A stretch of 40,206 bases of DNA from positions 1 through 40,206 of the forward strand of contig CAIWXI010000040.1 in the NCBI GenBank assembly GCA_903916595.1, written 5' to 3'. Both the position numbers and the translations under genes were made by a program. A model generated the notes under the pieces. The model saw nothing but the letters and a program-made list of their open reading frames with translations. It was not told where the DNA came from and made no database searches. Below, one piece after another: positions 3,766 through 40,206 of the stretch; within the stretch, counting starts at the first letter, position 1; each line of letters opens with the position of its first letter. Source of the stretch: an uncultured Bacteroidales bacterium (lineage in GTDB: Bacteria; Bacteroidota; Bacteroidia; Bacteroidales; FEN-979).

Positions 3766-3795
3766 AAACTTTCAAGATCATCAAAAATTAAAAAA

Positions 3796-8355: not shown

Positions 8356-8372
8356 ATAAAAAAAACTGAAAA

Positions 8373-21468: not shown

Positions 21469-21473
21469 TCATT

Positions 21474-21508
21474 ATGTACGATGTACAATGTACGATGTAC
21501 GATGTACG
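21474..21508 (+). repeat. Heptamer tandem array, 5 units of ATGTACG
   Basis: Five contiguous 7-bp units, four ATGTACG and one ATGTACA, begin 5 bases after the rarA stop. A degenerate sixth unit follows. It is the left member of an inverted pair; the right member is at 21595-21615. Confidence 0.9.
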
Positions 21509-21548
21509 ATTTATAATCCCTGATACTTAATCCGATTTACGAATAACT

Positions 21549-21556
21549 TATCTTTG
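21549..21556 (+). promoter_or_regulatory. -7 promoter element (TATCTTTG) of kdsA
   Basis: TATCTTTG is a full TAnnTTTG match about 84 nt upstream of the kdsA ATG. The -33 TTG is not evident. The element lies between the two inverted heptamer arrays, so the right array would be in the mRNA leader. Confidence 0.4.
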
Positions 21557-21594
21557 AATCACAAATCTTAATTCTGACTTCAAATCTTAAATTT

Positions 21595-21615
21595 CGTACA
21601 TCGTACATCGTACAT
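21595..21615 (-). repeat. Heptamer tandem array, 3 units of CGTACAT (inverted copy)
   Basis: Three perfect 7-bp units CGTACAT, which is the reverse complement of ATGTACG. It faces the 21474-21508 array across 86 bases and ends 24 bases before kdsA. Confidence 0.9.
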
Positions 21616-21639
21616 TTTAATTCGTAAATTTAAATTCCT

Positions 21640-22452
21640 ATGTTCCCCTCCAACATTCCCCATTTAACCGTCAGAGACCCGAATATGTTTTTCCTCATCG
21701 CTGGTCCATGCGTTGTTGAAAACGACATTATGCCGCTTGAAGTGGCAACGCATATCAGGCAGGTATGCGATCGGCTGAACATACCGTTCATCTTCAAATC
21801 ATCGTACAAAAAAGCCAACCGATCCAGGGGCGATTCGTTTACCGGCATAGGTAACGAGAGGGCCATGAGCATCATCTCTGAGGTTGGTAAAAAACTTGGC
21901 ATACCAACGCTTACCGATGTGCATTCGGAAGAAGAAGCCGGTTTCGCGGCTGCATACGTGGATGTGCTTCAGATCCCCGCATTTCTGTGCCGGCAAACCG
22001 CACTTCTTATTGCAGCGGGCAGGACGGGAAAAACCGTTAACATCAAAAAAGGCCAGTTTTCCTCGCCCGAATCCATGAAGTATGCCGTGCAAAAGATCCT
22101 CAGTACCGGTAATGTGAACGTGATGCTGACTGAACGCGGAACCACTTTCGGCTATCAGGACCTGATTGTCGATATGCGCTCCATCCCGGAGATGCAGAAG
22201 TTTAATGTGCCGGTTATCCTCGATGTAACACATTCCCTGCAGCAACCCAATCAACCGGAAGGGGTCACCGGTGGAAAACCGGAACTCATTGAAATTATGG
22301 CAAAGACAGGGATTGCCGCGGGGGCGGATGGGATATTCATTGAGACCCATCCTGATCCGGGAAAGGCAAAATCAGACGGGGCCAACATGCTCAGGCTGGA
22401 ACTCCTGGAAGATTTACTGGTAAAACTGGTAAGGATCAGAAAAGCCCTTTAG
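21640..22452 (+). CDS. kdsA: 3-deoxy-8-phosphooctulonate synthase (metal-dependent type)
   Basis: A 270-residue cytosolic TIM-barrel enzyme condensing arabinose 5-phosphate with phosphoenolpyruvate to Kdo 8-phosphate, the precursor of the LPS inner-core sugar Kdo. Key blocks are FLIAGPCVVEND, FKSSYKKANRSRGDSFTGIG, VDVLQIPAFLCRQTALLIAA, NIKKGQFSSPESM, ERGTTFGYQDLIVDMRS and DVTHSLQQPN. Cys24 in the GPC motif, the histidine of DVTHS, the glutamate of FIETHPDP and the aspartate of KSDGANM are the four metal ligands of the metal-dependent class; the E. coli metal-free class has asparagine at the Cys position. The gene is monocistronic: it is preceded by repeat arrays and meets the DUF4831 gene tail to tail with 6 bases between. 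Confidence 0.95.
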   Translation: MFPSNIPHLTVRDPNMFFLIAGPCVVENDIMPLEVATHIRQVCDRLNIPFIFKSSYKKANRSRGDSFTGIGNERAMSIISEVGKKLGIPTLTDVHSEEEAGFAAAYVDVLQIPAFLCRQTALLIAAGRTGKTVNIKKGQFSSPESMKYAVQKILSTGNVNVMLTERGTTFGYQDLIVDMRSIPEMQKFNVPVILDVTHSLQQPNQPEGVTGGKPELIEIMAKTGIAAGADGIFIETHPDPGKAKSDGANMLRLELLEDLLVKLVRIRKAL

Positions 22453-22458
22453 TCCTGG

Positions 22459-23652
22459 CTATTCAATACTGAGGCTCTTAATACCTCCTGTTTCCTGGTG
22501 GAAGAGTACTTTCCATTTGCTCGACGGCAGATTGGTCACCAGGCCAAGCTGGCTGATCAAACACTGCTGTTCTTCCTGGGTATTGTCATCAACCTTCACG
22601 GTAACCCTTGCGTATTCAGGTATCCTGTAATAGAACCCACTTGATTTAGCGGTCTTTCCGGCTTTCTGGAGATAGGTTGAAACGGAATGTGTATTGCCTA
22701 CCCTCTGCACTTTGATGGTTATCACCTTGCCCCCGCCGGGAGCATCCAGATCCTGAACCCCCTTCGACTTGTTGAATTTAAGCACGGGAATTTCGGTATT
22801 GATCTGGTTTGGAATAGGAATAAACTTGTACGAGAATGTCATGGTCTTATGAATCCTTACCCCGGTAAACAGCTTCAGGTACTCCCTTTCGAGGTTTTTC
22901 AGCTGGGCATCCATAAATTCGAGCGTCTCTTTATTGTAATTCACTTCCTGAAACCCGGTGATCAGGTTGAAGCGGTTATCTTTGATCTTTGAAAGAAAAT
23001 CAGCCGCTTCCTTGGCTTTCTGTTCAGGTGATTTTTCAACCATCGTCTTCTTCAGGTACTGACGTTCAAGCGTCATAGTATCTATATTTACTTTTCTGCG
23101 GATGGTGTCGATCTTTTCAAATACACTGATATCAGTATAGTTTCTGAACAGCTCACCAAATGCGTCCTTCTCGAGTTCCAGTGGAGGCTCTTCCGCGTTT
23201 AACAACCTGTTGGCGCCGGCAGAAGTGTCTGTTACCACAGGCAAGGTACCCAGTATGATTCCGGCATCGGTAAGCGAAAGCAAACCGGCATTCTCACCTT
23301 TCAGCGCTTTATCTCCAAGCTCAACAAAATAGTACTGGTCGGGATCCGGTTCGAAGGAAGTTGAAATATTGATATCAGATATCTTATATTCAATAGTGTT
23401 CGACTGAACCACGTTCTTCAGTCCGAGAAAACGCAGGGCATAATCAGCATACGGTCCCTGGTAATTTTCAACCCGGTCAATTTTTACTGTAATATTGACA
23501 ACCGTTCGCGGAAGACTGTAAAATATTCCTTCGTTAGTCTGGGGGAACGTATTGTTGTCGATATGCACCACGTTGATCTGTGCAAATGCTGTAAAGCTGC
23601 CAATCATAAGCAGAACCAGCATCAGCCGGATAAGAAACCCATGAAAAGTCAT
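22459..23652 (-). CDS. DUF4831 family exported protein
   Basis: A 397-residue protein of the Bacteroidota-specific DUF4831 family. It starts with a signal peptide (LIRLMLVLLMIGSFTAFAQ). The family N-terminal block is visible: EGIFYSLPRTVVNITVKIDRVENYQGPYADYALRFLGLKNV. The middle has a FLSKIKDNRFNLITGFQEVNYNKETLEFMDAQLKNLEREYLKLFTG segment, and the C-terminal part is predominantly beta. No catalytic residues are apparent and the function is unknown; a periplasmic location is inferred. An in-frame upstream ATG at 23709 is inside glnN and is rejected, as the chosen ATG has the signal peptide directly after it. It starts 14 bases after the glutamine synthetase stop and is probably cotranscribed with it. 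Confidence 0.83.
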   Translation of the reverse strand: MTFHGFLIRLMLVLLMIGSFTAFAQINVVHIDNNTFPQTNEGIFYSLPRTVVNITVKIDRVENYQGPYADYALRFLGLKNVVQSNTIEYKISDINISTSFEPDPDQYYFVELGDKALKGENAGLLSLTDAGIILGTLPVVTDTSAGANRLLNAEEPPLELEKDAFGELFRNYTDISVFEKIDTIRRKVNIDTMTLERQYLKKTMVEKSPEQKAKEAADFLSKIKDNRFNLITGFQEVNYNKETLEFMDAQLKNLEREYLKLFTGVRIHKTMTFSYKFIPIPNQINTEIPVLKFNKSKGVQDLDAPGGGKVITIKVQRVGNTHSVSTYLQKAGKTAKSSGFYYRIPEYARVTVKVDDNTQEEQQCLISQLGLVTNLPSSKWKVLFHQETGGIKSLSIE

Positions 23653-23666
23653 AATTTCAGAACGTC

Positions 23667-25856
23667 TTAGTGAATAAACAATAGTTCGCGGTATTTTGGC
23701 AATGGCCACACTTCGTCGTCGACCATCAGTTCCAGTTTATCGGAATGATAGCGTATTTTTTCAAAAAAAGGAAAGACATGATGGCAGTACGATTTTGCTT
23801 TCTCTTCAGGGTCCTGCATCCTGTTAGCCACCTTGCGGGCTTCAGTCATCTCGCTAACATAGGTCATAATCTTATCGATATGTTCTGATATTTCGGTAAT
23901 CTGCTCCATTTGATTCTGCGAAATCTTACCGTAAGTCTTCAGATCAAGAACCAATTTCAGTCCTTTCACATTGTCGACCAGGACATTCTGGTACCTGATG
24001 GCAACCGGAATAACATGGTTAGAAACCAGATCGCCAAGAACCCTCGATTCAATCTGTATCTTTTTAGTATAATTTTCGAGCCCGATCTCATAATGTGCAT
24101 GAACCTCGCGGCTTGTAAGCACTCCGGTTCGTTCAAAAACATCCACGAATTTCTTATTCACATAAGCTTTGAGGGCATCGGGAGTTGTCTTGTGGTTTGA
24201 AAGTCCTCGTTTTGCAGCTTCCTTCAGCCATTCCTGTCCGTAATTATTCCCTTCAAACCTGATGGCTTTAGACTCTTTGATGTATTTTTTAAGTATGGTC
24301 ATGATGGCTTCATCGGGTTTCACTTTCTTTCCCGCGACGGCCTTCAGATCCTTCATAAACTGATTCAGCTGATCAGCTACAATCATGTTCAGAGTGATCA
24401 TGGCAGGTGCGCAGGAGTGGGATGAACCAACAGCCCTGAATTCAAATTTATTCCCGGTAAAAGCAAACGGGGAGGTACGGTTACGGTCAGTATTGTCCAG
24501 AAGTATCTCGGGAATCTTGGGGAAATTTTTCAGCAAACCGCCATCGTTATCAAGACTGAACTTGAAATTCTTGTCGCTTTTCTCGATCGTATTCAGCCAA
24601 TGAGTAAGCTGAGCTCCTATGAATACCGAGATGATACCCGGAGGTGCTTCGTTGGCGCCCAAACGGTGATCGTTACCCGGTGTGGCTATGATAGCCCTTA
24701 AAAGGTCGGCATTTTCATGCACGGCTTTCACAATATTAACAAGAAAAGTAAGAAAACGCAGCTCCGATTTTGCAGTGTCACCAGGTATCAGCAGGTTTTC
24801 TTTTGTATTGGTAGAAAGGGACCAGTTATTGTGTTTGCCCGATCCGTTAACGCCGCTAAAGGGTTTCTCGTGAAGCAATACAGTGAAATTGTGCCGGCTG
24901 GCAATTTTCTCAACAAGGTGCATCATCAGCTGGTTGTGGTCAACCGAGAGATTGGCCTCCTCAAATACAGGAGCACACTCAAACTGGTTTGGCGCTACTT
25001 CGTTATGCCTTGTCTTTACAGGGATTCCCAGCCTGTGGGCTTCCAGTTCAAATTCCTGCATAAAGGCCATCACCCTCTGCGGAATAGTTCCGAAATAGTG
25101 GTCTTCAAGCTGCTGGTCTTTGGCCGAAGAATGTCCGAACAGAGTACGCCCGGTCAGAACCAGGTCGGGCCTGGCACTGTGGAGCGCTTTATCAACCAGA
25201 AAATATTCCTGCTCCCATCCGAGAGTTGAAAACACTTTGGTTACATCCTTATCGAACAGCTGACAAACCTCAACAGCGGCCTTATCTATGGCATGCAGAG
25301 AGCGAAGCAAAGGTGTTTTATAGTCGAGGGCTTCACCGGTATACGAAATAAAGACTGAAGGTATACACAGGGTTTTATCCATGATAAATGCCGGCGAAGA
25401 AGGATCCCATGCCGTATAACCTCTGGCTTCGAAAGTACTGCGAATACCACCGCTGGGGAAGCTCGAAGCATCAGGTTCCTGTTGGGTCAGCTCTATCCCC
25501 CTGAATTTCTCAATCCCAGTTCCGCCTTCCACCGGACTTACAAAAGCATCGTGCTTTTCGGCGGTGGCTCCGGTAAGAGGAAGAAACCAGTGAGTATAAT
25601 GGGTCGATCCATTGCTGATAGCCCAGGCTTTCATGCCGGCCGCTACCTGATCGGCTATCCTGCGGTCAATTTTCTCGCCTTTTTCTATTGAATTGATAAC
25701 AGCAGTATAGGCTTCTTCCGTGAGAAACTCTTTCATTGCAACCCTGTTGAACGTAAGTTCTCCGAAATATTCTGATGCTTTTTTATCAGGAAAATTAACG
25801 AACTTGGGAACCCTGCTCATGGTCATCTCCAAAGCTCTGAATCTCATGTTGTCCAT
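23667..25856 (-). CDS. glnN: Glutamine synthetase type III
   Basis: A 729-residue glutamine synthetase of the GSIII class, which makes glutamine from glutamate and ammonia with ATP and is typical of Bacteroidota. The length is diagnostic, since GSI is about 450 residues. The GSIII N-terminal domain is visible (MDNMRFRALEMTMSRVPKFV, FGELTFNRVAMKEFL). Catalytic motifs are GWEQEYFLVDKAL, PVKTRHNEVAPNQFECAPVFEEAN, HEKPFSGVNGSGKHNNWSL, RLGANEAPPGIISVFIG and NRTSPFAFTGNKFEFRAVGSSHSCA. A heptamer/octamer repeat cluster fills the 65 bases before the start, and no TAnnTTTG element is visible there, so the promoter may lie upstream of the symporter gene. Confidence 0.96.
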   Translation of the reverse strand: MDNMRFRALEMTMSRVPKFVNFPDKKASEYFGELTFNRVAMKEFLTEEAYTAVINSIEKGEKIDRRIADQVAAGMKAWAISNGSTHYTHWFLPLTGATAEKHDAFVSPVEGGTGIEKFRGIELTQQEPDASSFPSGGIRSTFEARGYTAWDPSSPAFIMDKTLCIPSVFISYTGEALDYKTPLLRSLHAIDKAAVEVCQLFDKDVTKVFSTLGWEQEYFLVDKALHSARPDLVLTGRTLFGHSSAKDQQLEDHYFGTIPQRVMAFMQEFELEAHRLGIPVKTRHNEVAPNQFECAPVFEEANLSVDHNQLMMHLVEKIASRHNFTVLLHEKPFSGVNGSGKHNNWSLSTNTKENLLIPGDTAKSELRFLTFLVNIVKAVHENADLLRAIIATPGNDHRLGANEAPPGIISVFIGAQLTHWLNTIEKSDKNFKFSLDNDGGLLKNFPKIPEILLDNTDRNRTSPFAFTGNKFEFRAVGSSHSCAPAMITLNMIVADQLNQFMKDLKAVAGKKVKPDEAIMTILKKYIKESKAIRFEGNNYGQEWLKEAAKRGLSNHKTTPDALKAYVNKKFVDVFERTGVLTSREVHAHYEIGLENYTKKIQIESRVLGDLVSNHVIPVAIRYQNVLVDNVKGLKLVLDLKTYGKISQNQMEQITEISEHIDKIMTYVSEMTEARKVANRMQDPEEKAKSYCHHVFPFFEKIRYHSDKLELMVDDEVWPLPKYRELLFIH

Positions 25857-25865
25857 AGGTGCGAT

Positions 25866-25922
25866 TTACGATTTACGATAATTAAATGGTGAAATGGTGA
25901 AATCTGATATCTTTCATCTGCT
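25866..25922 (+). repeat. Composite repeat cluster: TTACGAT x2, AAATGGTG x2, ATCTGNN x3
   Basis: Two TTACGAT units (25866-25879), a 4-base joint, two AAATGGTG units (25884-25899), then three 7-bp units ATCTGAT, ATCTTTC and ATCTGCT (25902-25922). It occupies almost the entire gap between the symporter stop and the glutamine synthetase start. The last unit overlaps the symporter stop codon by one base. Confidence 0.85.
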
Positions 25923-27370
25923 CAGGTTTTACGTCTCACAATATAAAGTCCTGCAAAAGTAATCAATCCGTTAAGAATGAGAAGTTCAAAACCAAATTTA
26001 TATCCACCAAATATTAACATTGAGTATCTGCTGATTAAATAACAAACAACAGGTGATATAAGGGCAATGACAGGTACCAGTTTATCTTTCACCTGCTTAC
26101 GGGTAAACAGACCGAAAGCATAGAGGCCCAGCAGGGGCCCGTAAGTATACCCGGCCACGGTGAATAACTTATCGATTACAGCCCTGTCGTTGATCGCCCG
26201 GAACAGAATAATAACAGCAAGCAGAATTAAGGCAAAGGCAATATGTACCAGGTAACGGATCTTTTCCTTCTGTTTTTCATTCAATGTATTTTTCTGCGGA
26301 AGGCGTAGAAAGTCAATGCAAAAGGAGGTCGTGAGCGAGGTCAATGCCCCGTCGGCACTGGGATAAGCAGCAGAGATAAGTCCTATAACAAAGACCAGCC
26401 CGGCCAGGGGCCCGAGATGGTTTATGGCAATCATCGGAAACAGATCATCGGAGCGAGCAGGCAATGCAATACCTTTGAAGTCGGCGAAAAGGAAAAGAGT
26501 AGCCCCGAGAAAAAGGAAAACAAAATTCACGAAAACAAGTACCCCGCTGAAAGTAAACATGTTCTTCTGTGCGTCTTTGAGATTGCGACAGCTCAGGTTC
26601 TTCTGCATCATCTCCTGATCCAGCCCGGTCATCACGATCGTAATAAACATCCCGCTGAAAAACTGCTTCAGAAAAAACCGGCGGTCGCTCCAGTCGGTAT
26701 TAAAAATGTTCGTCAACCCTTTATCAACAGCCTTATGGAACAAACCCGAAAGGCTCAGATCCATATTCTTCGAAATAAGGTATATCGACAATCCTACAGC
26801 AAGAAGCATAAACGTAGTCTGAACCGTATCGGTCCAGATGATCGTTTTGATACCGCCCTTAAAAGTGTAGAGCAGGATCAGGATAATAAAAATAAGGACT
26901 GTCAGTGCGAAAGGGATATTCCATGCATCGAACACGAAGACCTGAAGTACATTCACAACCAGGAACATCCTGAACGAAGCACCGATGACCCTTGAAAGAA
27001 GAAAATAAAATGCGCCTGTTTTATAGGACCAGAAACCGAAGCGCGATTCGAGGTAGGAATAGATAGACGTGAGGTTCATCCTGTAATACAAAGGCAGCAG
27101 AACGGTGGCGATCACCGCGTATCCTAAAAGGTATCCCGAAACAACAAGAAAATAAGAGAACTGGGTCTCTCCTACCCAACCAGGCACCGACATGAATGTG
27201 ACGCCCGAAAGTGAGGCTCCGATCATACCATAAGAAACGACGAACCATGGCGACGATTTATTTCCAATATAAAAACTCCGGTTCGTTGCTTTTCTCGCCG
27301 TGAGCCAGGTAATAAAAAACAGCAGGGCCGTGTATGCAAAGAAAGCGATGAGGATGGATTTGGGAGTCAT
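25922..27370 (-). CDS. Sodium:solute symporter (SSS family)
   Basis: A 482-residue inner-membrane transporter with about 13 helices. The family N terminus is present (ALLFFITWLTARKATNRSFYIGNKSSPWFVVSYGMIGASLSGVTFMSVPGWVG), as are YYRMNLTSIYSYLESRFG and the sodium-site region MTGLDQEMMQKNLSCRNLKDAQKNM. AAYPSADGALTSLTTSFCIDFL matches helix 8, with serines and threonines positioned to coordinate sodium. SSS members import sugars, amino acids, carboxylates or sialic acid; the sequence does not reveal the substrate. It lies downstream of the heptose genes and upstream of glutamine synthetase. Repeat arrays flank it on both sides, so its membership in either operon is uncertain. Confidence 0.9.
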   Translation of the reverse strand: MTPKSILIAFFAYTALLFFITWLTARKATNRSFYIGNKSSPWFVVSYGMIGASLSGVTFMSVPGWVGETQFSYFLVVSGYLLGYAVIATVLLPLYYRMNLTSIYSYLESRFGFWSYKTGAFYFLLSRVIGASFRMFLVVNVLQVFVFDAWNIPFALTVLIFIILILLYTFKGGIKTIIWTDTVQTTFMLLAVGLSIYLISKNMDLSLSGLFHKAVDKGLTNIFNTDWSDRRFFLKQFFSGMFITIVMTGLDQEMMQKNLSCRNLKDAQKNMFTFSGVLVFVNFVFLFLGATLFLFADFKGIALPARSDDLFPMIAINHLGPLAGLVFVIGLISAAYPSADGALTSLTTSFCIDFLRLPQKNTLNEKQKEKIRYLVHIAFALILLAVIILFRAINDRAVIDKLFTVAGYTYGPLLGLYAFGLFTRKQVKDKLVPVIALISPVVCYLISRYSMLIFGGYKFGFELLILNGLITFAGLYIVRRKT

Positions 27371-27377
27371 GGTAGAT

Positions 27378-27454
27378 GTACGATGTACGAATTACGAATT
27401 ACGATTTACGATTTACGATTTATTACATCTGCCATCTGATATCAGGCATCTGGC
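27378..27454 (+). repeat. Composite repeat cluster: TTACGAT-type x6 then ATCTGNN x4
   Basis: Six contiguous 7-bp units of GTACGAT/GTACGAA/TTACGAA/TTACGAT type (27378-27419), then after 7 bases four 7-bp units ATCTGCC, ATCTGAT, ATCAGGC and ATCTGGC (27427-27454). The cluster starts 8 bases from the symporter start and extends 42 bases into the 3' end of gmhB, whose TAA stop is supplied by the last TTACGAT unit. Confidence 0.88.
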
Positions 27455-27994
27455 AAAAGACTGTAAATCAGGAAACACATAGTTTATCGTCCTGAATCCA
27501 CTGCGGATGTGCGGAAGGTCGGATGAGAGAAACACGGTTTTCATGCCAACCCTTTTGCCGAAAACCATGTCGGAAAGCGAATCGCCTGCCATGATTGATT
27601 GCCGGAACCGTATTTCGGGAAAGCGTTTCCGGGCTTGCAGGGCCATTCCTATGTTCGGTTTGCGGTTGAACGATTTTTCACTTTCCAGTGCCGGACAATA
27701 AAACACCGCGTCAATCCTGCCTCCTGCAGCTTCCACTTCAGATATCATCCTCTGGTGTACCTTTTCAACTTCACTGTTAGTCATCAATCCCTTTCCAACC
27801 CCCTGCTGGTTGCTTACCACCACAATACGGCCAAACAGACCTGAAACTTCTTTCAATGCTTCTTTAACCCCGGGGTTGAATTCGAACTGCCCCCAGTTAC
27901 TAACATAGCCGTCAATAATCCGTCGGTTGATAACACCATCGCGGTCAAGAAACAAGGTCCAGGTATTATCGATCTTTAAATCCTTCAAATTCAT
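27413..27994 (-). CDS. gmhB: Heptose bisphosphate phosphatase (GmhB-like HAD hydrolase)
   Basis: A 193-residue HAD phosphatase that would remove the 7-phosphate of D-glycero-D-manno-heptose 1,7-bisphosphate, step 3 of GDP-heptose synthesis. HAD motif I is FLDRDGVINRR (Asp17, Asp19), motif II VVVSNQQGVGKG, the lysine is in NRKPNIGM, and the final acidic motif is MAGDSLSDM. The zinc loop of classical GmhB (Cys-x-His ... Cys-x-Cys) is absent: YCPALESEKSFNRKP replaces it. An upstream in-frame ATG at 28060 is rejected because the domain begins at MNLKDLKIDNTWTLFLD. It overlaps hddC by 29 bases. The last 14 residues (ARCLISDGRCNKS and the stop) are encoded by tandem repeat units. Assignment rests on the pathway neighbours as well as motifs. 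Confidence 0.85.
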   Translation of the reverse strand: MNLKDLKIDNTWTLFLDRDGVINRRIIDGYVSNWGQFEFNPGVKEALKEVSGLFGRIVVVSNQQGVGKGLMTNSEVEKVHQRMISEVEAAGGRIDAVFYCPALESEKSFNRKPNIGMALQARKRFPEIRFRQSIMAGDSLSDMVFGKRVGMKTVFLSSDLPHIRSGFRTINYVFPDLQSFARCLISDGRCNKS

Positions 27995-28670: not shown

Positions 28671-28676
28671 GCGTGA

Positions 28677-29255: not shown

Positions 29256-29263
29256 ATCTTTTT

Positions 29264-29307
29264 AAATGGTGAAATGGTGAAATGGTGAAATGGTGAAATG
29301 GTGAAAT
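29264..29307 (+). repeat. Octamer tandem array, 5 units of AAATGGTG
   Basis: Five perfect 8-bp units AAATGGTG (29264-29303) plus a partial AAAT. It fills most of the 60 bases between the nitroreductase stop and the gmhA start, ending 8 bases from the former and starting 8 bases from the latter. Confidence 0.93.
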
Positions 29308-29315
29308 TTTGTTCA

Positions 29316-29840: not shown

Positions 29841-29846
29841 ATTTTT

Positions 29847-29877
29847 CAGATATCAGATATTTCACCATTTAAATGGT
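29847..29877 (-). repeat. Short repeat cluster: one AAATGGTG-type unit and two ATCTGNN units, with a 14-bp palindrome
   Basis: Minus-strand reading gives a unit AAATGGTG followed by two 7-bp units ATCTGAT and ATCTGAA. At 29864-29877 is the perfect palindrome ACCATTTAAATGGT, whose central TAA is the hddA stop codon. The cluster lies in the 28-base gap between hddA and the nitroreductase. Confidence 0.75.
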
Positions 29878-30891: not shown

Positions 30892-30903
30892 GAATCAGTT
30901 TCT

Positions 30904-30915
30904 ATTATGCATAAT
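30904..30915. other. 12-bp perfect palindrome upstream of hddA
   Basis: ATTATGCATAAT is self-complementary and centred about 18 bases upstream of the hddA ATG. It could be an operator half-site pair, but it may be chance in AT-rich DNA; no second copy was noticed. Confidence 0.3.
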
Positions 30916-30934
30916 GGGTACGAAGATAAGAAGA

Positions 30935-31046
30935 AAGTAGCGAAGTAGCGAAGTAGCGAAAAAACATGATGGCAGATATCAGATTTCACCATTTCACCAT
31001 TTCACCATTTCACCATTTCACCATCTCACCATTTCGCCATTTGCCC
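30935..31046 (-). repeat. Composite repeat cluster: AAGTAGCG x3, ATCTGNN x2, AAATGGTG-type x8
   Basis: On the plus strand there are three 8-bp units AAGTAGCG (30935-30958), then GGCAGAT and ATCAGAT (30971-30984), then eight 8-bp units of ATTTCACC type (30983-31046). The first five are identical and the last three degenerate (ATCTCACC, ATTTCGCC, ATTTGCCC). On the minus strand this reads AAATGGTG units followed by ATCTGAT and ATCTGCC. The degenerate end lies inside the GT4 coding sequence and encodes its last residues and stop. Confidence 0.9.
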
Positions 31047-32165: not shown

Positions 32166-32172
32166 GGTCTGA

Positions 32173-33363: not shown

Positions 33364-33381
33364 AGGATGTTTAATAATGTA

Positions 33382-34320: not shown

Positions 34321-34328
34321 TTTTAAAT

Positions 34329-34859: not shown

Positions 34860-34885
34860 GGCGTTGAAATTTTACTGGTTCACTA

Positions 34886-34893
34886 CAAACATA
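34886..34893 (-). promoter_or_regulatory. -7 promoter element (TATGTTTG) for the DUF4199-glycosyltransferase unit
   Basis: On the minus strand TATGTTTG ends 26 nt before the DUF4199 ATG. A TTG at optimal distance is not present. It is divergent from the SRP RNA promoter, 20 bases away. Confidence 0.45.
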
Positions 34894-34912
34894 CGAAAAA
34901 AACAATTTCCTC

Positions 34913-34941
34913 TTGAATTGGCTTGAATTTTTATACCTTTG
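34913..34941 (+). promoter_or_regulatory. Promoter of the SRP RNA gene
   Basis: TTG at 34913-34915, 18-base spacer, TACCTTTG at 34934-34941. The RNA start is 4-5 nt later. The 18 bases at 34928-34945 are identical to those at the tRNA-Lys promoter (35738-35755). Confidence 0.7.
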
Positions 34942-34945
34942 CACC

Positions 34946-35042
34946 GGGTAAGTCTTATACGACCAGCTCCCTACAAAATCCCCCAGGTTCGGAAGGAAGC
35001 AAGGGTAAGTTGGTTGAGCGGTGCGATATAAGGGGCTTACCC
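34946..35042 (+). ncRNA. ffs: Signal recognition particle RNA (4.5S-type, small)
   Basis: A 97-nt RNA. The terminal helix pairs GGGTAAG at 34946-34952 with CTTACCC at 35036-35042. The central SRP54 (Ffh)-binding domain is unmistakable: CCCAGGTTCGGAAGGAAGCAAGGG, with the GGAA-type tetraloop in the apical hairpin and the asymmetric internal loop AGGTTCG/AAGCAAGGG order. It has no Alu domain, as expected for this group. It guides nascent membrane and secreted proteins to the membrane with Ffh and FtsY. A strong -7/-33 promoter lies directly upstream and a run of nine T (35044-35052) follows. Ends are estimated to within a few bases. Confidence 0.93.
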
Positions 35043-35052
35043 ATTTTTTTTT
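35043..35052 (+). terminator. T-run terminator of the SRP RNA
   Basis: The GC-rich end of the SRP RNA closing helix is followed by an uninterrupted run of nine T, so the RNA's own terminal stem serves as the terminator hairpin. One AAATGGTG unit follows at 35053 and could pair with CCATTT before the run. Confidence 0.6.
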
Positions 35053-35071
35053 AAATGGTGAAATCAATAAT

Positions 35072-35683
35072 ATGCTTCTGAAGGTACATCCGGATAATCC
35101 GGGGGAAAGGCATTTAAAGATCATCACCGACTGTCTCAAGAGCGGGGGTGTGATCATCTATCCTACCGATACGGTTTATGGATTGGGGTGTGATATTACA
35201 AAGATCAAGGCGGTTGACCGGGTAGCGCAAATCAAGGGGATCAAAAGAGAGAAAGCGAATTTTTCGTTTATATGCCATAGCCTCAGTCAGCTGGCAGACT
35301 ATACCCGGCCTATCAATAACGACATTTTCCGTCTGATGCGCAGAACACTTCCTGGTCCTTATACCTATATATTAAAGGCCAACAATAACGTTCCGCATTT
35401 TTTCCAGAGTAAAAAAAAGAGCGTCGGCATAAGAATACCTAACCATAAAGTGCCTCTGGAAATCGTTGAAAAGCTGGGTAATCCTATCATGACTACTTCT
35501 ATTCACTCCGACAACAGTTTTATCGAATACCCGGTAGATCCTGAAGAAATTTACGAAAGATTCAAAAAACTGGTTGATATCGTGATCGATTCGGGCCATT
35601 CTGGCGATATTCCCTCCACCGTAATCGACTGCAGGGACGATGTAGCGGTAGTTCTCAGGCAGGGTAAGGGTGAAATTTCATAA
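35072..35683 (+). CDS. YciO/Sua5/YrdC family protein (threonylcarbamoyl-AMP synthase-like)
   Basis: A 203-residue single-domain protein of the YrdC fold. The signature is VIIYPTDTVYGLGCDI, and nucleotide/threonine-pocket residues occur in KRE...FSFICHSLSQLADYTRP, TLPGPYTYILKANNNVP, KKSVGIRIPNH and the C-terminal IPSTVIDCRDD. YrdC/Sua5 make threonylcarbamoyl-AMP for the t6A37 modification of ANN-decoding tRNAs. Length and the N terminus (LKVHPDNPGERHLKIITDCLK) look more like the YciO subgroup, whose activity is weaker or uncertain. An upstream in-frame start at 35021 would lie inside the SRP RNA and is rejected. The next gene is tRNA-Lys(UUU), itself a t6A substrate. Confidence 0.88.
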   Translation: MLLKVHPDNPGERHLKIITDCLKSGGVIIYPTDTVYGLGCDITKIKAVDRVAQIKGIKREKANFSFICHSLSQLADYTRPINNDIFRLMRRTLPGPYTYILKANNNVPHFFQSKKKSVGIRIPNHKVPLEIVEKLGNPIMTTSIHSDNSFIEYPVDPEEIYERFKKLVDIVIDSGHSGDIPSTVIDCRDDVAVVLRQGKGEIS

Positions 35684-35699
35684 GGTTTATAACTTGTAC

Positions 35700-35734
35700 T
35701 TCGTAATTAGTAATTCGTAATTTGTAATTTGTAC
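35700..35734 (-). repeat. Heptamer tandem array, 5 units of TTNGTAA type
   Basis: Five contiguous 7-bp units: TTCGTAA, TTAGTAA, TTCGTAA, TTTGTAA, TTTGTAC. The reverse complement of TTCGTAA is TTACGAA, so this is the inverted, more diverged form of the TTACGAT unit. It begins 17 bases after the YciO/Sua5 stop and ends 9 bases before the tRNA -7 element. Confidence 0.82.
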
Positions 35735-35751
35735 TTTTTTTTATACCTTTG
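35722..35751 (+). promoter_or_regulatory. Promoter of tRNA-Lys and the downstream ketoacyl synthase gene
   Basis: TTG at 35722-35724, 19-base spacer, TACCTTTG at 35744-35751. The TTG falls inside the fourth unit of the adjacent heptamer array. Confidence 0.65.
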
Positions 35752-35754
35752 CAC

Positions 35755-35768
35755 CCTCATTTTTGAGG
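35755..35768 (+). other. Small hairpin in the 5' leader of tRNA-Lys
   Basis: CCTCA, loop TTTT, TGAGG: a 5-bp perfect stem that ends 1 base before the tRNA acceptor stem. It would be part of the precursor removed by RNase P. Confidence 0.5.
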
Positions 35769-35769
35769 C

Positions 35770-35842
35770 GACTCAGTAGCTCAGCAGGTAGAGCATCGCC
35801 CTTTTAAGGCGGGGGTCTTGGGTTCGAATCCCAACTGGGTCA
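35770..35842 (+). tRNA. tRNA-Lys, anticodon TTT
   Basis: A 73-nt cloverleaf. The acceptor stem pairs GACTCAG with CTGGGTC, the D arm has GCTC/GAGC, the anticodon stem TCGCC/GGCGG (last pair a mismatch-type T-G) encloses loop CTTTTAA with anticodon TTT, and the T arm is TTGGG/CCCAA with loop TTCGAAT. The discriminator is A at 35842. CCA is not encoded (the next bases are CAA). The following coding sequence starts 3 nt after the discriminator base. Confidence 0.97.
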
Positions 35843-35845
35843 CAA

Positions 35846-36943
35846 ATGAATTCAGTCAGACAAGAATCTTATTATTCTGTAATTACAGGATCGGGGAGAT
35901 ATATACCTGATCGTATTATTAAGAATGAACAATTTCTTGACAATGAATTTTTTGATAACGCCGGCGAAAAAATCACCAAGTCGAATGACGATATCATCGA
36001 TAAATTCAAACAGATTACCGAGATAGAGGAAAGAAGATATATCGATGACCTTCATGTAACTTCCGACATGGGATTTTTTGCTGCCCATGATGCCATCCAA
36101 TCTTCGGGCATTGATAAGGAAACTCTCGATTACATTATTGTTGCGCATAATTTCGGGGATGTAAAAAAGGATAACCTGAAATCAGACATGGTTCCGACCC
36201 TGGCTGCAAGGATTAAATATAAGCTGGGTATCGAAAATCCATACACCGTAGCTTACGATCTTGCATTTGGTTGCCCGGGATGGCTTCAGGCGATCATTCA
36301 CGCAGACTATTTCCTGAAATCAGGGGATGCGAAAAAAATCCTGGTCATTGGAGCGGAAGCTTTATCGCGGGTTTCAGATCCTCACGACATCGACAGTATG
36401 TTATATTCCGATGGCTCGGGAGCTGTTATTCTTACTGCCGTAAAAAGCGATGTGCCATTGGGGATCTTAGGCCATTGTACCCGGTCAGATACCATTCAGC
36501 ATGCCAATTTGCTGAGGATGGAGAAATCATATAATCCGGAATTCGGAAGCGATGATATTTTTCTGAAAATGAATGGCCGTAAATTATATGAATATGCGCT
36601 GAACACGGTTCCCCAGTCAGTGAAAGATTGTATCGACAAATCGGGGGTTCCCATTGCAATGATTAAAAAAGTGCTGATCCATCAGGCCAATGCCAAAATG
36701 GATGAGGCCATCTTGTCGCGTCTTTTTAAACTTTACGGTATTGAAACAATTCCGGTCGGTATAATGCCAATGACCATCTCTTTGCTGGGAAATAATTCTG
36801 TTGCGACCATACCGGTTTTATACGACTTGCTTGTAAAAGGAGAATTGGAAGGACACCATTTATCGGGCGGCGATTATTGTGTGTTTGCCTCAGTAGGCGC
36901 CGGAATGAACGTTAATGTTATTGTTTACCGTACCCCGTATTAG
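35846..36943 (+). CDS. 3-oxoacyl-ACP synthase III (FabH-like) family protein
   Basis: A 365-residue thiolase-fold condensing enzyme. The catalytic triad is recognisable: Cys143 in DLAFGCPGWLQ, His279 in IHQANAKMDEAIL, Asn316 in LLGNNSVA. SDGSGAVILTA and the C-terminal GDYCVFASVGAGMNVNVIVY are also typical of the family. It is about 45 residues longer than E. coli FabH, and the insertions near residues 30-60 and 230-250 resemble FabH-like proteins of secondary or specialised lipid metabolism, so it may not be the housekeeping FabH. The only plausible start is ATG 35846, 3 nt after the tRNA-Lys 3' end; there is no separate leader or promoter. It ends 21 bases before cysC. Confidence 0.88.
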   Translation: MNSVRQESYYSVITGSGRYIPDRIIKNEQFLDNEFFDNAGEKITKSNDDIIDKFKQITEIEERRYIDDLHVTSDMGFFAAHDAIQSSGIDKETLDYIIVAHNFGDVKKDNLKSDMVPTLAARIKYKLGIENPYTVAYDLAFGCPGWLQAIIHADYFLKSGDAKKILVIGAEALSRVSDPHDIDSMLYSDGSGAVILTAVKSDVPLGILGHCTRSDTIQHANLLRMEKSYNPEFGSDDIFLKMNGRKLYEYALNTVPQSVKDCIDKSGVPIAMIKKVLIHQANAKMDEAILSRLFKLYGIETIPVGIMPMTISLLGNNSVATIPVLYDLLVKGELEGHHLSGGDYCVFASVGAGMNVNVIVYRTPY

Positions 36944-36964
36944 TCTCTATTGCTATCCCCTCTA

Positions 36965-37573
36965 ATGAAACTTCAGAATCAGCATATTTATCCGAGCGAA
37001 TCGCTCAAACTCAGCAGGGACCTCAAAGAAAAGCAACTTCATCAGCGCTCAAAGATCATCTGGATGACAGGTCTCTCGGGAGCAGGCAAAACCACGCTTT
37101 CGTATGCACTTGAATCGGCTTTGCATGGCATGGGGTATTTTATCCAGACCCTCGACGGGGATAACGTGCGAACGGGGATCAACAAAAATCTGGGATTTTC
37201 CGACGACGACCGCTACGAGAACATCCGCCGTATTGCCGAAGTCTCAAAACTGTTCCTGAACTGCGGCATCATCACAATCGCCAGCTTTATCAGTCCCACC
37301 AATGAAATACGCGATATGGCCCGGACTATTATCGGCAAAGACGACTTTATAGAATTCTTTGTCAACGCCCCCCTTGAAGTCTGCGAATCCCGCGATGTAA
37401 AAGGGCTATACGAAAAAGCCCGAAGAGGCGAGATAAAGGAATTCACCGGGATCAACGCTCCATACGAAATCCCGGTAAACCCGGCTCTGGAAATACGTAC
37501 CGACCTGCTGTCGATAGATGGATCAGTAAAGCAAATGATTGATTTCCTTCTCCCGCTTATACAATGCCGTTAA
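36965..37573 (+). CDS. cysC: Adenylylsulfate kinase (APS kinase)
   Basis: A 202-residue P-loop kinase converting adenosine 5'-phosphosulfate to PAPS with ATP. Walker A is MTGLSGAGKTTLS. The APS-binding segment is TLDGDNVRTGINKNLGFSDDDRYENIRRIAEVSKLFLNCGIITIASFISP, followed by FFVNAPLEVCESRDVKGLYEKARRGEIKEFTGINAPYE, all hallmark CysC blocks. A TTG at 36950 is an alternative start, but ATG 36965 is preferred. No sulfate adenylyltransferase gene is adjacent, so PAPS may serve sulfation or assimilation elsewhere. It is probably cotranscribed with the ketoacyl synthase gene. Its stop codon overlaps the stop codon of the oppositely oriented SPFH gene. Confidence 0.95.
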   Translation: MKLQNQHIYPSESLKLSRDLKEKQLHQRSKIIWMTGLSGAGKTTLSYALESALHGMGYFIQTLDGDNVRTGINKNLGFSDDDRYENIRRIAEVSKLFLNCGIITIASFISPTNEIRDMARTIIGKDDFIEFFVNAPLEVCESRDVKGLYEKARRGEIKEFTGINAPYEIPVNPALEIRTDLLSIDGSVKQMIDFLLPLIQCR

Positions 37574-38439
37574 TCGTCTGATTTCTTTCTGATCGGAACC
37601 ACGCCCGACATCTCACCCATCACATTCACGAGATCGGAACCAGTAGGCACAATCACCTTGCTGTTGTCCTTGAGCGAAGTCTCCATTGCCTGGATACGCC
37701 TGAGCATCTGGGCATTTCCAACGAAATATTTCTGGGCAGATTCATTCACAAGCTGAATTGCCTGGGCTTCACCTTCGGCACGCAAAATAGCGCCCTGCTT
37801 GATCCCTTCAGCCCTGCGGATCTCGGCACGCTTCTCGCCATCGGCCTTGGTTTCAGTAGCAGTTGCATAATCTACCGCGGCAATCTTCTCGTTCTCGGCT
37901 TTTACGATCTTGTTCATCGTTTCCTGCACATCCTTGGGAGGATCAATCTCCTTGAGCTCGGTTCGGATGATCTCGATACCCCAGCTGATAGTTTCTTCAT
38001 GCAGGGTTCCATGCAACTCCTTATTGATCTTTCCACGTTCGCTATTGGCGGATTTCAGTGTCATGGTGCCAATGATGTTACGCAAAGTCGTACGTGCAAG
38101 GTTCACAATCTGGTATTCAATACTATTAACATTGTACTGGGAATTTTTAACATGATCCTCATCCGACTTAATCTTAAAATACACCTGGGCATCGACTCTT
38201 GCATTCAGGTTGTCGTTGGTAATGATCTCCTGAGGTTCTGCATTGATCATTTTCTCGGTTATGTTCACCTGGTACATCTGCTCAATACCCGGCATAATCC
38301 AATGAAAACCAGGCATGGCAAAACGGTTATACTTCCCTAAACGCTCAACCAGACCGCGGTGGGTCGGGCGAACGATACGGATCCCTGCGAAGAAAAAAAG
38401 CAGTACGATCCCGATAGCAACTAGAATAGGAATTTCCAT
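37570..38439 (-). CDS. SPFH/band 7 (stomatin/paraslipin-type) membrane protein
   Basis: A 289-residue protein anchored by one N-terminal helix (IPILVAIGIVLLFFFAGIRIV). The band 7 domain follows at about 25-190: RPTHRGLVERLGKYNRFAMPGFHWIMPGIEQMYQVNITEKMI, NARVDAQVYFKIKSDEDH, and the stomatin-type ARTTLRNIIGTMTLKSANSERGKIN. A coiled-coil follows at about 195-250, rich in Ala/Glu/Lys (KADGEKRAEIRRAEGIKQGAILRAEGEAQAIQL). Such proteins oligomerise into membrane rings and organise quality control with membrane proteases. An NfeD partner is usual for this family but is not adjacent here. The stop codon shares bases with the convergent cysC stop. Confidence 0.93.
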   Translation of the reverse strand: MEIPILVAIGIVLLFFFAGIRIVRPTHRGLVERLGKYNRFAMPGFHWIMPGIEQMYQVNITEKMINAEPQEIITNDNLNARVDAQVYFKIKSDEDHVKNSQYNVNSIEYQIVNLARTTLRNIIGTMTLKSANSERGKINKELHGTLHEETISWGIEIIRTELKEIDPPKDVQETMNKIVKAENEKIAAVDYATATETKADGEKRAEIRRAEGIKQGAILRAEGEAQAIQLVNESAQKYFVGNAQMLRRIQAMETSLKDNSKVIVPTGSDLVNVMGEMSGVVPIRKKSDD

Positions 38440-38467
38440 AATATTTGTGGGTTTTGGTTTTACCCAT

Positions 38468-38498
38468 CAAACCTACACCGAAAAAGGCAATAAAACAA
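38468..38498 (-). promoter_or_regulatory. Promoter of the SPFH gene
   Basis: Minus strand TTG at 38498-38496, 20-base spacer, TAGGTTTG at 38475-38468. The ATG follows after a leader of about 24 nt. Confidence 0.55.
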
Positions 38499-38507
38499 GA
38501 AATTGAA

Positions 38508-38515
38508 TAAATTTG
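38508..38515 (+). promoter_or_regulatory. -7 promoter element (TAAATTTG) of the methyltransferase gene
   Basis: TAAATTTG matches TAnnTTTG, 15 nt before the ATG at 38531. No clear -33 TTG. It is divergent from the SPFH promoter in a 91-base intergenic region. Confidence 0.42.
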
Positions 38516-38530
38516 TAAAAAATCTACGGT

Positions 38531-39538
38531 ATGACCCGAATCGAAACCCCGGCCTCACTGATGGAAATCGTGAACGGCTTCAGGCTAAGCAGAATTATCC
38601 TTACAGCCCACGAATTAAGAATATTTGACCATCTGGAAGGAAAATCCATTTCTTCATTCGACGTGGCCTCCCTGATCGGGGCAGACAAAAGAGCCACCGA
38701 CCGCCTGATGAACGTGTTGGTTTCGCTGGGCCTGCTCGAAAAGAGGCATGATCTTTTTACAACTTCCCTATTCGCCGACAAATACCTGACATCCTCCTCC
38801 CCTGCCTTTCTGGGCGGTCTCGGGCACGCGGCCGATCTCTGGAGAAAATGGGATACCCTCACCGCGGTCATCCGAAAAGGATCTGCCATTGACATAGAAG
38901 ATGACTTCAACGAAAGGGGGCCTCAGTGGCTGGAAGCGTTTATCGCCGCCATGCATACCCGTGGTGTAAGCCAGGGCCAGGAACTCGCCTCCCTGCTTGA
39001 CCTTTCCGGGGTAAAACGCACGCTGGATGTAGGCGGAGGTTCCGGGGCATTCACCTTTGCCTTTATCGAAAAGGATCCCTCAATACAGTCGGTCGTGTTC
39101 GACCTGCCCAAAGTGATCCCCATAACACAGAAATACATCGACCGCTACCATCACGGCGCCAACGTCACTACCATGGCCGGCGATTACCATACCGACAGCT
39201 TCGGCCAGGGATATGACCTTGTACTGATGTCGGCCATCATCCACATCAACAATCCGCCGGAAAACAAGATGCTGATAAAAAAAGGAGCCGATTCTCTTGC
39301 ACCCGGCGGAATGCTCGTGATCATGGACCACCTGATGAACGAAGACCGCACAAAACCCCAGCAAGGCACGGTGTTTGCCATCAACATGCTCGTTGGGACA
39401 AAGCAAGGCGACACCTACACGGCAGATGAGATAAAAGGATGGATGCAGGATGCAGGATTACAGGATATCAGTATCCTCGATGCCACTTCAGGAACACAGT
39501 ACATTATTGGAATAAAGCCGATCACCATCAATCAGTAA
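38531..39538 (+). CDS. SAM-dependent O-methyltransferase-like protein (AdoMet_MTase type 2 family)
   Basis: A 335-residue methyltransferase with an N-terminal winged-helix dimerisation domain (residues about 10-80: NGFRLSRIILTAHELRIFDHL ... LMNVLVSLGLLEKR) and a C-terminal Rossmann-type catalytic domain. SAM motif I is LDVGGGSGAFTFAFI, then SVVFDLPKVIPITQKY and LVLMSAIIHINNPPENKMLIKKGADSLAPGGMLVIMDHLM. This two-domain layout is that of the acetylserotonin/caffeate O-methyltransferase family, used in bacteria on quinone-like, carotenoid or polyketide substrates. The substrate here is unknown. It is a lone gene facing the SPFH gene across shared upstream DNA. Confidence 0.88.
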   Translation: MTRIETPASLMEIVNGFRLSRIILTAHELRIFDHLEGKSISSFDVASLIGADKRATDRLMNVLVSLGLLEKRHDLFTTSLFADKYLTSSSPAFLGGLGHAADLWRKWDTLTAVIRKGSAIDIEDDFNERGPQWLEAFIAAMHTRGVSQGQELASLLDLSGVKRTLDVGGGSGAFTFAFIEKDPSIQSVVFDLPKVIPITQKYIDRYHHGANVTTMAGDYHTDSFGQGYDLVLMSAIIHINNPPENKMLIKKGADSLAPGGMLVIMDHLMNEDRTKPQQGTVFAINMLVGTKQGDTYTADEIKGWMQDAGLQDISILDATSGTQYIIGIKPITINQ

Positions 39539-39713
39539 GTAATCCTGAAACGCTTCAACATCAAGTTCTCCAATATTTGACAGGATAATGAAACAACAGG
39601 AATATTAATTGTCAAGGTTTTCATAAGACAAAGAGACTATTTTTTTTATTTTTTCACAATAGCTTTCCAATGAATATTTCTCAGGACCAATGCAGTTCGC
39701 TGATTTACGATAA

Positions 39714-40206
39714 TTAACTTCTCGGATCCTTTTTCAGCGGCATTTTAGCCATTTTTTCAACCTGCAGGCTGGGGAAACCGAATTCCTCAACGATTTTTCC
39801 CATCACAAGATAAACCCCTTCACCCCTAAATGGGTATTTTTCCACAGCCTGCGGAAAATGAACCGTATCGAAAAACTGTCCTTCGAAATCGATGAAGGTG
39901 CCGAAATGCATCCACTCTTTTTTTACGGTCCGCACATATTTGATGGTTACCAGCAAGCCCAGCATACGTACTTTTTTACCCAGTTTGCCCATCATCTCCC
40001 CGGCCATGATCTCGCCCCGGAACGAGGTTTCGAGAAGTTCGAAATATGAATGTGAAACAGGCCAGCCCAGCAGTTCGATCTCATCGTAAACCTCCTCCAC
40101 AGAGTTTTGTTCCAGAGCCGGGAGTTCGAATTTCTTTGCTTCAGCGGGGAAAAGGCCCGGGAGTCGTGATACGTGACACGTGGCACGTGATACGTGAGTC
40201 GTGGCA
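39714..40206 (-). CDS. dnaE: DNA polymerase III alpha subunit (DnaE-type), C-terminal part, cut by window edge
   Basis: The reading frame stays open from the TAA stop at 39714-39716 to the end of the window, giving about 163 residues of the C terminus. The segment KFELPALEQNSVEEVYDEIELLGWPVSHSYFELLETSFRG and the OB-fold block KKVRMLGLLVTIKYVRT, FGTFIDFEGQFFDTVHFP, YPFRGEGVYLVMGKIVEEFGFPSLQVEKMAKMP match the C terminus of the roughly 1000-residue DnaE homologues of Bacteroidota. A GTG at 40098-40100 is not the real start. At 40161-40206 the frame runs through a 7-bp tandem repeat array encoding a 7-residue peptide repeat. Catalytic residues would lie beyond the window. Confidence 0.78.
   Translation of the reverse strand, partial: ATTHVSRATCHVSRLPGLFPAEAKKFELPALEQNSVEEVYDEIELLGWPVSHSYFELLETSFRGEIMAGEMMGKLGKKVRMLGLLVTIKYVRTVKKEWMHFGTFIDFEGQFFDTVHFPQAVEKYPFRGEGVYLVMGKIVEEFGFPSLQVEKMAKMPLKKDPRS
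40161..40206 (+). repeat. Heptamer tandem array, at least 6 units of GRNACGT type, in frame in dnaE
   Basis: Contiguous 7-bp units GAGTCGT, GATACGT, GACACGT, GGCACGT, GATACGT, GAGTCGT, then GGCA at the window edge. It has the same period as the intergenic arrays but a different unit. In the minus-strand dnaE frame it encodes TTHVSRA and TCHVSRL, a 7-residue repeat. Confidence 0.85.

Follow-up and report, generated by a model that had tools for sequence, protein, structure and literature searches.

Tandem 7- and 8-bp arrays in a Bacteroidales genus often stay at the same gene junctions while their repeated words change

We analysed a 40,206-nucleotide stretch from an uncultured Bacteroidales bacterium (G000:C40:1-40206, hereafter the window), part of a 3.79-Mb draft genome of 166 contigs (G000), for short tandem arrays with units of 7 or 8 bp that lie mostly at gene junctions. 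By comparison with seven congeners (G001-G007, one genome per species), we found that the positions of these arrays are often common to the congeners while the repeated words turn over genome-wide. The address, the period class and the strand polarity tend to be kept and the sequence is not, and the genus thereby offers a natural experiment with one junction set in eight species, where the period class is stable and the words are many.

Arrays were found with Tandem Repeats Finder (TRF) and by counting exact tandem doublets or longer runs at each period. The sample from G000 comprised 401,217 bases, namely the window and 20 further stretches (one of which read N), and the chance control was one third-order Markov surrogate of this 401-kb sample. 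Exact doublets or longer numbered 117 at period 7 (22 in the surrogate) and 57 at period 8 (3 in the surrogate). Neighbouring periods were scarce, with 15 versus 5 at period 6, 5 versus 1 at period 9 and at most 2 at each of periods 10-13. At a stricter TRF threshold, periods 7, 8, 14 and 21 gave 37, 40, 18 and 10 rows, respectively, and the surrogate gave 0 at these periods. Because 17 of the 20 extra stretches were drawn from contigs already known to hold AAATGGTG, array density comes out too high; this choice should have less influence on the contrast between periods. The initial annotation of the window had named a scan beyond it as the test that could refute a general 7/8-bp repeat family, and the excess persisted there, both in the 401-kb sample and in whole-genome pattern counts. 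Nor is the right half of the window special: an exact 7- or 8-bp doublet was present in each of the 19 readable extra stretches, some being expected by chance, and arrays on other sampled contigs show that the scarcity of arrays in the left half is not a general feature.

A handful of words turn up repeatedly across G000. The commonest exact units in the 401 kb were AAATGGTG (34 arrays), AGGATGC (19), ATGTACG (18; canonical form ACATCGT) and GGGATGC (15; canonical form ATCCCGC), and doublets of AAATGGTG gave 801 matches in the whole genome. By eye, GGATGC-like words were repeated with one or two variable positions. Higher-order blocks of 21 and 24 bp were also present, for example (GGATGCG GGATGCG GGATGCA)n, and some long arrays consisted of three-unit blocks.

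The placement of these arrays relative to genes is distinctive. In 192 kb of G000, 65% of the bases in 7/8-bp islands fell outside called open reading frames (ORFs), which cover 93% of that sequence, in agreement with the initial placement of the arrays at gene junctions. Genes were called simply as the longest ORFs, and part of the remaining island bases may lie at ORF ends that this caller over-extended. Among 19 array-bearing gaps of at least 30 bp, the outer array edge lay within about 20 bp of a stop codon in 18 and within about 50 bp of a start codon in 16. We then compared the window and contigs C30, C31 and C10 with the seven congeners, which covered them unevenly, giving 412 orthologous pairs over 150 junctions. 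At least one member of the pair carried an array in 61 of 296 co-directional pairs, 7 of 67 convergent pairs and 3 of 49 divergent pairs.

The arrays also showed a strand polarity. Measured by the gap midpoint, the G-rich strand read away from rather than toward the gene end in ratios of 32:9 in G000, 37:10 in other genera and 18:18 in the congeners; for arrays within 30 bp of a gene end, a restriction picked post hoc after the midpoint result, these became 24:3, 25:3 and 16:9. With this restriction and |G-C| >= 3, 59 of 70 arrays had their G-rich strand reading away from the nearest gene end, versus 223 of 382 array-free gaps, the nearest end being a stop in 44 of the 70 and a start in 26. 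We state this polarity with reservation, given the post hoc choice and hold-out sets (6 away to 2 toward at |G-C| >= 3, 7 to 4 without the threshold) that are too small to confirm it.

Synteny between G000 and its congeners is good, with DNA identity mostly of 73-84%, so the gaps could be compared one by one. A 7/8-bp array in the congener stood opposite a G000 array in 33 of 62 pairs and opposite an array-free junction in 9 of 350. Counted per junction, a congener array was present at 13 of 23 array junctions versus 5 of 127 array-free junctions, and three of these five exceptions are window junctions at which G000 holds a remnant (the doublet at 29846 and the single units at 35053 and 39702). 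These unfiltered counts supersede an earlier count of 31/55 versus 0/99, which is biased because G000 gaps below 30 bp were left out.

The word at a given junction usually differed between species. In the 31 both-array pairs of the first set, the unit was identical in 3, one base off in 5, two to four bases off in 12 and without a common period in 11; that is, it agreed within one mismatch in 8/31 and differed beyond this in 23/31. At the DAHP synthase junction (21468-21640), G000 carries ATGTACG, G003 an ATGAGTG-type unit, G004 and G007 a AAATAGCG-type unit, G005 a TTCACTG-type unit and G006 CACTGGG- and CCCAGTA-type units. Five of the six congeners compared there thus bear arrays of other words, and the sixth, G001, has a gap of 3 bp. 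Likewise, junction C30:34618 holds AAATGGTG in G000, GCGAAAR in G002, RRCAGGG in G005 and TTGAATA in G007, and the SIS-domain junction (29264) holds AAATAGCG/AAGTAGCG in G001 and G004. Upstream of glutamine synthetase, an ATTTACG-type unit was found in G000 and, within one mismatch, in five of the seven congeners. The signal recognition particle (SRP) RNA junction (35053) has a single AAATGGTGAAAT in G000 and arrays in G002 and G007, and no array was seen at the 35686-35737 junction in the congeners compared (G002, G005, G006 and G007). As had been proposed from the window alone, the family is defined by period and not by one sequence, given the many words, the excess at 7/8 bp and the exchange of units at orthologous junctions. 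The accompanying suggestion of a shared mechanism without a shared sequence holds in so far as the array is kept while its unit changes, but the units are not independent of one another.

This dependence was apparent in a comparison of 65 array-bearing genome-junction entries, with agreement defined as a match within one mismatch. Units at different junctions of the same genome agreed in 115 of 384 comparisons (30%), those at different junctions of two genomes in 91 of 1616 (6%) and those at the same junction in two genomes in 23 of 80. With G000 removed, the figures were 24/131 within genomes, 21/683 between genomes and 16/47 at the same junction. None of 500 genome-label shuffles with G000, and none of 1000 without it, reached the observed within-genome value. 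Within G000, we found no dependence of word sharing on distance (62 arrays on five contigs; about 0.15-0.18 at all distances and between contigs), so the sharing does not look like local duplication. Several species have word sets of their own: the commonest words differ between G000, G002, G004, G005 and G007, the seven congeners have 2, 0, 0, 3, 0, 0 and 4 matches to doublets of AAATGGTG, and doublets of GAARTAGCG number 164 in G004, 19 in G000 and 9 in G011 (none in 16 genomes of other families).

To account for these observations, we propose, with about even confidence, that tandem 7/8-bp arrays occupy tolerant junctions, that slippage makes the arrays and that ectopic copying spreads the words, while the addresses often stay. 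Junctions tolerating such arrays would lie mostly between co-directional genes, and the addresses would persist since such DNA is tolerated at some junctions only. The length of an array and its higher-order structure would arise while DNA is synthesized, by slipped-strand or multi-unit duplication. Looped-out stretches of 7-8 nt escape mismatch repair, which gives a lower size bound only; loops of this size would probably favour slippage because they both escape repair and match the polymerase step. The stretch of DNA held by the polymerase is a published guess for the period (Mrazek as cited in PMC4679880 and PMC4692102). Across genus-level divergence, an array would then often keep its junction but have its word replaced, mainly by words from other arrays of the same genome, through ectopic template switching or conversion at microhomologies; words would spread by one array templating another wherever the two share short homologies. 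Neighbouring arrays of unlike words can join at common letters, as in GTACGATTTACGATTTCACCATTT in L035. The outcome would be a concerted evolution of dispersed arrays, in which addresses are often retained and words replaced. That address, period and polarity tend to be kept and sequence is not argues against explanations based on one sequence, such as a quadruplex or a single binding protein; it favours a process that acts on length and on copying between arrays. If word replacement is truly concerted over hundreds of dispersed bacterial sites, the route by which information passes between sites becomes testable.

Several points weigh against this proposal. Conservation of junctions is incomplete, with 10 of the 23 array junctions lacking an array in any congener, and the pairs in the junction test are not independent, as they come from 23 array junctions and seven unevenly covered congeners. 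The check contig C10, which is included in the totals, points only weakly in the same direction as the full set when taken alone (2/6 versus 0/18, Fisher p 0.054; 0/22 with ATG starts only). Some genomes drive the word sharing, which was 0/10 in G003 (5 array junctions) and 0/6 in G006 (4 junctions), and no excess at period 7 was shown for G001, which was sampled too little (14 kb). Neighbour order exceeded that of shuffles at p <= 0.05 in just 7 of 39 long variable arrays (chance alone would give about 2), so any imprint of slippage on them is not strong; slippage alone also does not account for 7 and 8 rather than 6 or 9. Neither a copying intermediate nor within-species polymorphism was seen in this set of one genome per species.

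Alternatively, the arrays may be selected binding sites, in which a sequence-specific protein reads the unit near the start or stop codon and words change with the specificity of the protein. The closeness of array edges to stop (18/19) and start codons (16/19), the strand polarity (59/70 versus 223/382) and the fact that a single word is by far the commonest in some genomes would all fit such sites. We nevertheless regard them as unlikely, since several unrelated words coexist per genome, orthologous genes bear different words, none or another period, the array is missing from all congeners at 10 of 23 junctions, and the window genes flanking arrays have unrelated predicted functions. The polarity could also arise if spurious starts are avoided, or through base composition. 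For single words a binding protein is possible, if doubtful; one common to all would be hard to reconcile with so many words.

Purely local and independent slippage, by which an array would grow separately in every unconstrained gap, with nothing in common between gaps, would account for the change of words and for the avoidance of coding sequence and divergent gaps (61/296, 7/67 and 3/49). The within-genome sharing of 30% versus 6% between genomes stands strongly against independence, as does the recurrence of AAATGGTG in 34 exact arrays per 401 kb and 801 doublet matches per genome, and we consider this explanation improbable. We give similarly little credence to a dedicated trans-acting machine that would write 7/8-bp words at conserved junctions from a small, species-specific set of templates. 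Its logic would resemble telomere addition or a diversity-generating retroelement, a change of template changing words genome-wide with addresses fixed.

It is likewise improbable that the arrays are hairpin arms of elements like repetitive extragenic palindromes (REP/REPIN) or miniature inverted-repeat transposable elements, moved by a single-copy Y1 (IS200-like) transposase. Exactly one Y1_Tnp match was present in each of the eight members of the genus, in matching surroundings, and some gaps pair an array with its inverse, such as 21474/21594 in the window and several congener gaps. However, inspection by eye of 450 bp to each side of the Y1 match revealed no array in any of the eight genomes, and G011 (95% complete) has no Y1_Tnp match despite 31 AAATGGTG and 9 GAARTAGCG matches, which suggests that arrays occur without the gene; we rejected the transposase on these two grounds. 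At the single junction with a 3-bp congener gap, no target-site duplication was seen by eye. Nor do we claim the hairpin as a general feature: despite the apparent inverted pairs, inverted matches in array gaps exceed those of shuffles but hardly those of array-free gaps (mean longest inverted match 8.1 versus 7.9; fold z -1.14 versus -0.78). The Y1 gene itself lies at G000:C141:50223-50567, with counterparts in G001-G007, in a setting as for a domesticated gene.

As an explanation, loss of the SbcCD hairpin nuclease in the family, which would let palindromic arrays persist, is very improbable. The pattern of loss is striking at family level: SbcD scored above the cut-off in 1 of 27 genomes of family f1 (G000-G026) versus 8 of 16 from the order's other families, and strong SbcC matches occurred in the same genomes as SbcD, G048 excepted, although these matches all fall under the curated cut-off, which just 1 of 14 control genomes passes. 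Inside genus g3, however, there was no difference in density, the SbcCD-positive G022 having 10.8 arrays per 100 kb versus 8.3, 14.8 and 1.8 in three SbcD-negative members, and the SbcD-negative families of G049 and G057 were array-free in 20 kb each; the candidate was therefore set aside. G022 is the only SbcD-positive member of family f1 and also has the best SbcC match of the family. An assembly artefact is scarcely credible: although the last bases of the window (40165-40206) belong to an array and the assembly is a 166-contig draft, window arrays measure at most about 60 bp, their flanking genes are syntenic in up to seven relatives, and AAATGGTG also occurs in records without a metagenome-assembled genome label, such as Hymenobacter citatus strain BT507.

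Comparable arrays are known from other bacteria, and the reason heptamers recur in unrelated bacteria is the wider question on which these arrays bear. The short tandemly repeated repetitive (STRR) sequences of cyanobacteria are heptamers, several words of which occur in tandem in one genome. The likeness to STRR noted in the initial annotation is borne out by the several tandem heptamer words per genome outside genes; the differences are the host (cyanobacteria there, Bacteroidales here) and the octamers found here, and no word has been shown to be common to both. Three heptamers in Calothrix are cited in PMC4692102. The long simple sequence repeats (LSSR) of prokaryotes include a class with units of 5-11 nt (Mrazek 2007, as cited in PMC4679880 and PMC4692102), to which the arrays here belong by their excess over chance. 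LSSR are likewise tandem units beyond chance length, with heptamers commonest and a scattered phylogenetic distribution. The lead of heptamers here depends on the measure (117 versus 57 octamers by exact count; 37 versus 40 TRF rows, plus 18 and 10 rows at 14 and 21). Here, unlike in LSSR, one octamer carries as much weight as any heptamer, many different words are found side by side, and orthologous gaps retain the period class and swap the word.

GGGNATC/GGGGAYT heptamers have been described in Xanthomonas and Nostoc (Rehm 2015, PMC4692102), with 186 and 183 patterns in two Xanthomonas genomes. These repeats favour gaps between aligned genes, are rare between divergent genes and include some inverted pairs; in both genera, their G-rich strand is the non-coding strand upstream and the coding strand downstream of genes, and 83% are at the same place in two Xanthomonas species, with varying length and sequence (PMC4692102). 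The 7-bp units, the avoidance of divergent gaps (3/49 pairs) and a polarity of the same form (59/70, post hoc) are shared with our arrays. One word family is kept there, whereas here words differ between congeners at one place. A tract of three Gs is absent from AAATGGTG, ATGTACG, AAGTAGCG and CAGATAT and present in the GGGATGC class; since the main words AAATGGTG and ATGTACG lack one, a quadruplex cannot be the common cause.

The initial annotation knew of no equivalent in Bacteroidota, but direct repeats of TAACTGA have been described in Beggiatoaceae, cyanobacteria and five Bacteroidetes, accompanied by other heptamers in the Gramella/Aequorivita sets and in Elizabethkingia (MacGregor 2015, PMC4679880). 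Those repeats, for which MacGregor proposed protein binding in translation or transcription, are likewise intergenic heptamer arrays, patchy over distant phyla, and relatives with shorter gaps lack obvious repeats. They differ from ours in that one word dominates and similar heptamers are rare in the main genome, whereas many words and octamers occur here, and in lying mostly just upstream of start codons, whereas our arrays are nearer a stop (44/70) than a start (26/70). TAACTGA was absent from the commonest units listed for G000 and its congeners, no dedicated whole-genome search having been made. Neither MacGregor nor Rehm arrives at a function or a proven mechanism.

Heptamer-derived bacterial satellites such as (GATAGRA)n of Chloroflexus (PMC6749651) also form many arrays of one heptamer per genome, but with a single word; an orthologous-gap comparison was not found in the available part of that paper. 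REP/REPIN elements with REP-associated tyrosine transposases (RAYT; PMC3733652) resemble the arrays as high-copy short intergenic repeats with species-specific words and pairs in inverse orientation. By contrast, no fixed palindrome is evident in the arrays here, the GTAG tag occurs only within AAGTAGCG, and no array was seen next to the Y1 gene. Heptamer arrays between bacterial genes, conservation of their place in Xanthomonas and their occurrence in a few Bacteroidetes were thus already known. As far as literature searches show, a multi-word 7/8-bp system through a Bacteroidales family, the exchange of words at conserved junctions throughout a genus and word sets shared genome-wide are new: word searches, with most subscription papers outside their scope, found no published account of AAATGGTG arrays or of word replacement in orthologous gaps.

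We next characterized the distribution of the arrays beyond G000. In congener stretches, period 7 was above the Markov control in G002, G003, G005, G006 and G007, and period 8 in G004. With one stretch of 4-20 kb per genome, 7/8-bp islands were present in 12 of 15 genomes from the family's other genera and in 0 of 5 from other families, and the surrogate gave 1 island in 20 stretches. Doublets of AAATGGTG were found in G037 (197), G012 (45), G011 (31) and G031 (23, where a reversed control pattern gave 18), in 1 of 57 genomes from other families of the order and in 4 of 296 genomes of an even draw across the phylum, G000 among them. A scan of the collection for three tandem copies of AAATGGTG yielded at least 64 stretches. 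Among the matches listed, 36 were labelled Bacteroidales, 7 Hymenobacter and 4 Chryseobacterium, 4 lay outside the phylum (one Desulfobacterales, one Caballeronia and two archaeal), and the rest were Bacteroidota of several kinds.

Within the window (Table 1), ten of the eleven positions listed in the initial annotation were as described, and the eleventh, 29847, is merely a weak doublet (2.1 copies, TRF score 30). The longest octamer array of the window, at 30983-31042, and the array at 39441-39458 had been given no separate entry; the latter, lying in a called ORF, is the exception to the otherwise nearly correct statement that all arrays lie between genes or at gene ends. The first 21 kb had been said to hold none; TRF found no strong 7/8-bp array there but two weak rows, an A-rich 2.7-copy repeat at 8362 (score 31) and a two-copy 8-bp repeat at 20117 (score 32).

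Table 1. Short tandem repeats and single repeat units in the right half of the window
Feature	Position	Strand	Detection and setting
(ATGTACG)5.3 array	21474-21510	+	TRF; after stop codon of RarA/MgsA-type AAA ATPase gene (MgsA_C match)
TCGTACA x3.1 array, inverse of the ATGTACG word	21594-21615	-	TRF; before DAHP synthase gene (DAHP_synth_1 match)
(CGATTTA)2.6 array	25862-25879	+	TRF; upstream of type III glutamine synthetase gene
(AAATGGTG)2.5 array	25884-25903	+	TRF; shortly after CGATTTA array
(GATTTAC/GATGTAC)6.9 array	27375-27422	+	TRF; upstream of sodium:solute symporter gene (SSF match)
Degenerate CATCTGN array (TRF: CATCTGG x4.3)	27426-27455	+	adjoins GATTTAC/GATGTAC array
(AAATGGTG)5.5 array	29264-29307	+	TRF; upstream of SIS-domain gene
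Short composite, CAGATAT doublet then TTTCACCATTT	29846-29871	.	between nitroreductase and GHMP kinase genes
(AAGTAGCG)3.2 array	30935-30960	+	TRF; upstream of GHMP kinase gene
ATTTCACC x7.5 by TRF, equal to (AAATGGTG)7.5 on minus strand	30983-31042	-	end of glycosyltransferase gene
Single AAATGGTGAAAT	35053-35064	+	directly behind SRP RNA gene (34939-35046)
Degenerate (TTTGTAA/TTCGTAA)7.4 array	35686-35737	+	TRF; between protein gene and tRNA-Lys
(GGATGCA)2.6 array	39441-39458	+	TRF; within 3' part of called ORF
Single GATTTACGATAATTAA	39702-39717 (unit 39702-39709)	+	16-mer identical to 25870-25885
(CGTGAYA/CGTGRCA) array	40165-40206	+	TRF unit CGTGACA; very end of contig

The contig terminates within the ACGTGNN array at 40165-40206, and such arrays may therefore break assemblies of this genome. 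The SRP RNA gene at 34939-35046 is of the small Bacteroidales type. We also observed a dispersed intergenic element of about 60-75 bp (L136:12637-12711 in G007), without an Rfam match in L131, L134 and L136. It was not found in the 401 kb of G000 and had 8 matches over stretches of G001, G002, G004, G006 and G007, with matches in L134, L131, L127, L128, L186, L216 and L217. Finally, the left half of the window holds A-rich short repeats (CTGAAAAAC and AAAAATTAA) at 3688-3807 and 8354-8385, mostly of period 9 or 16.

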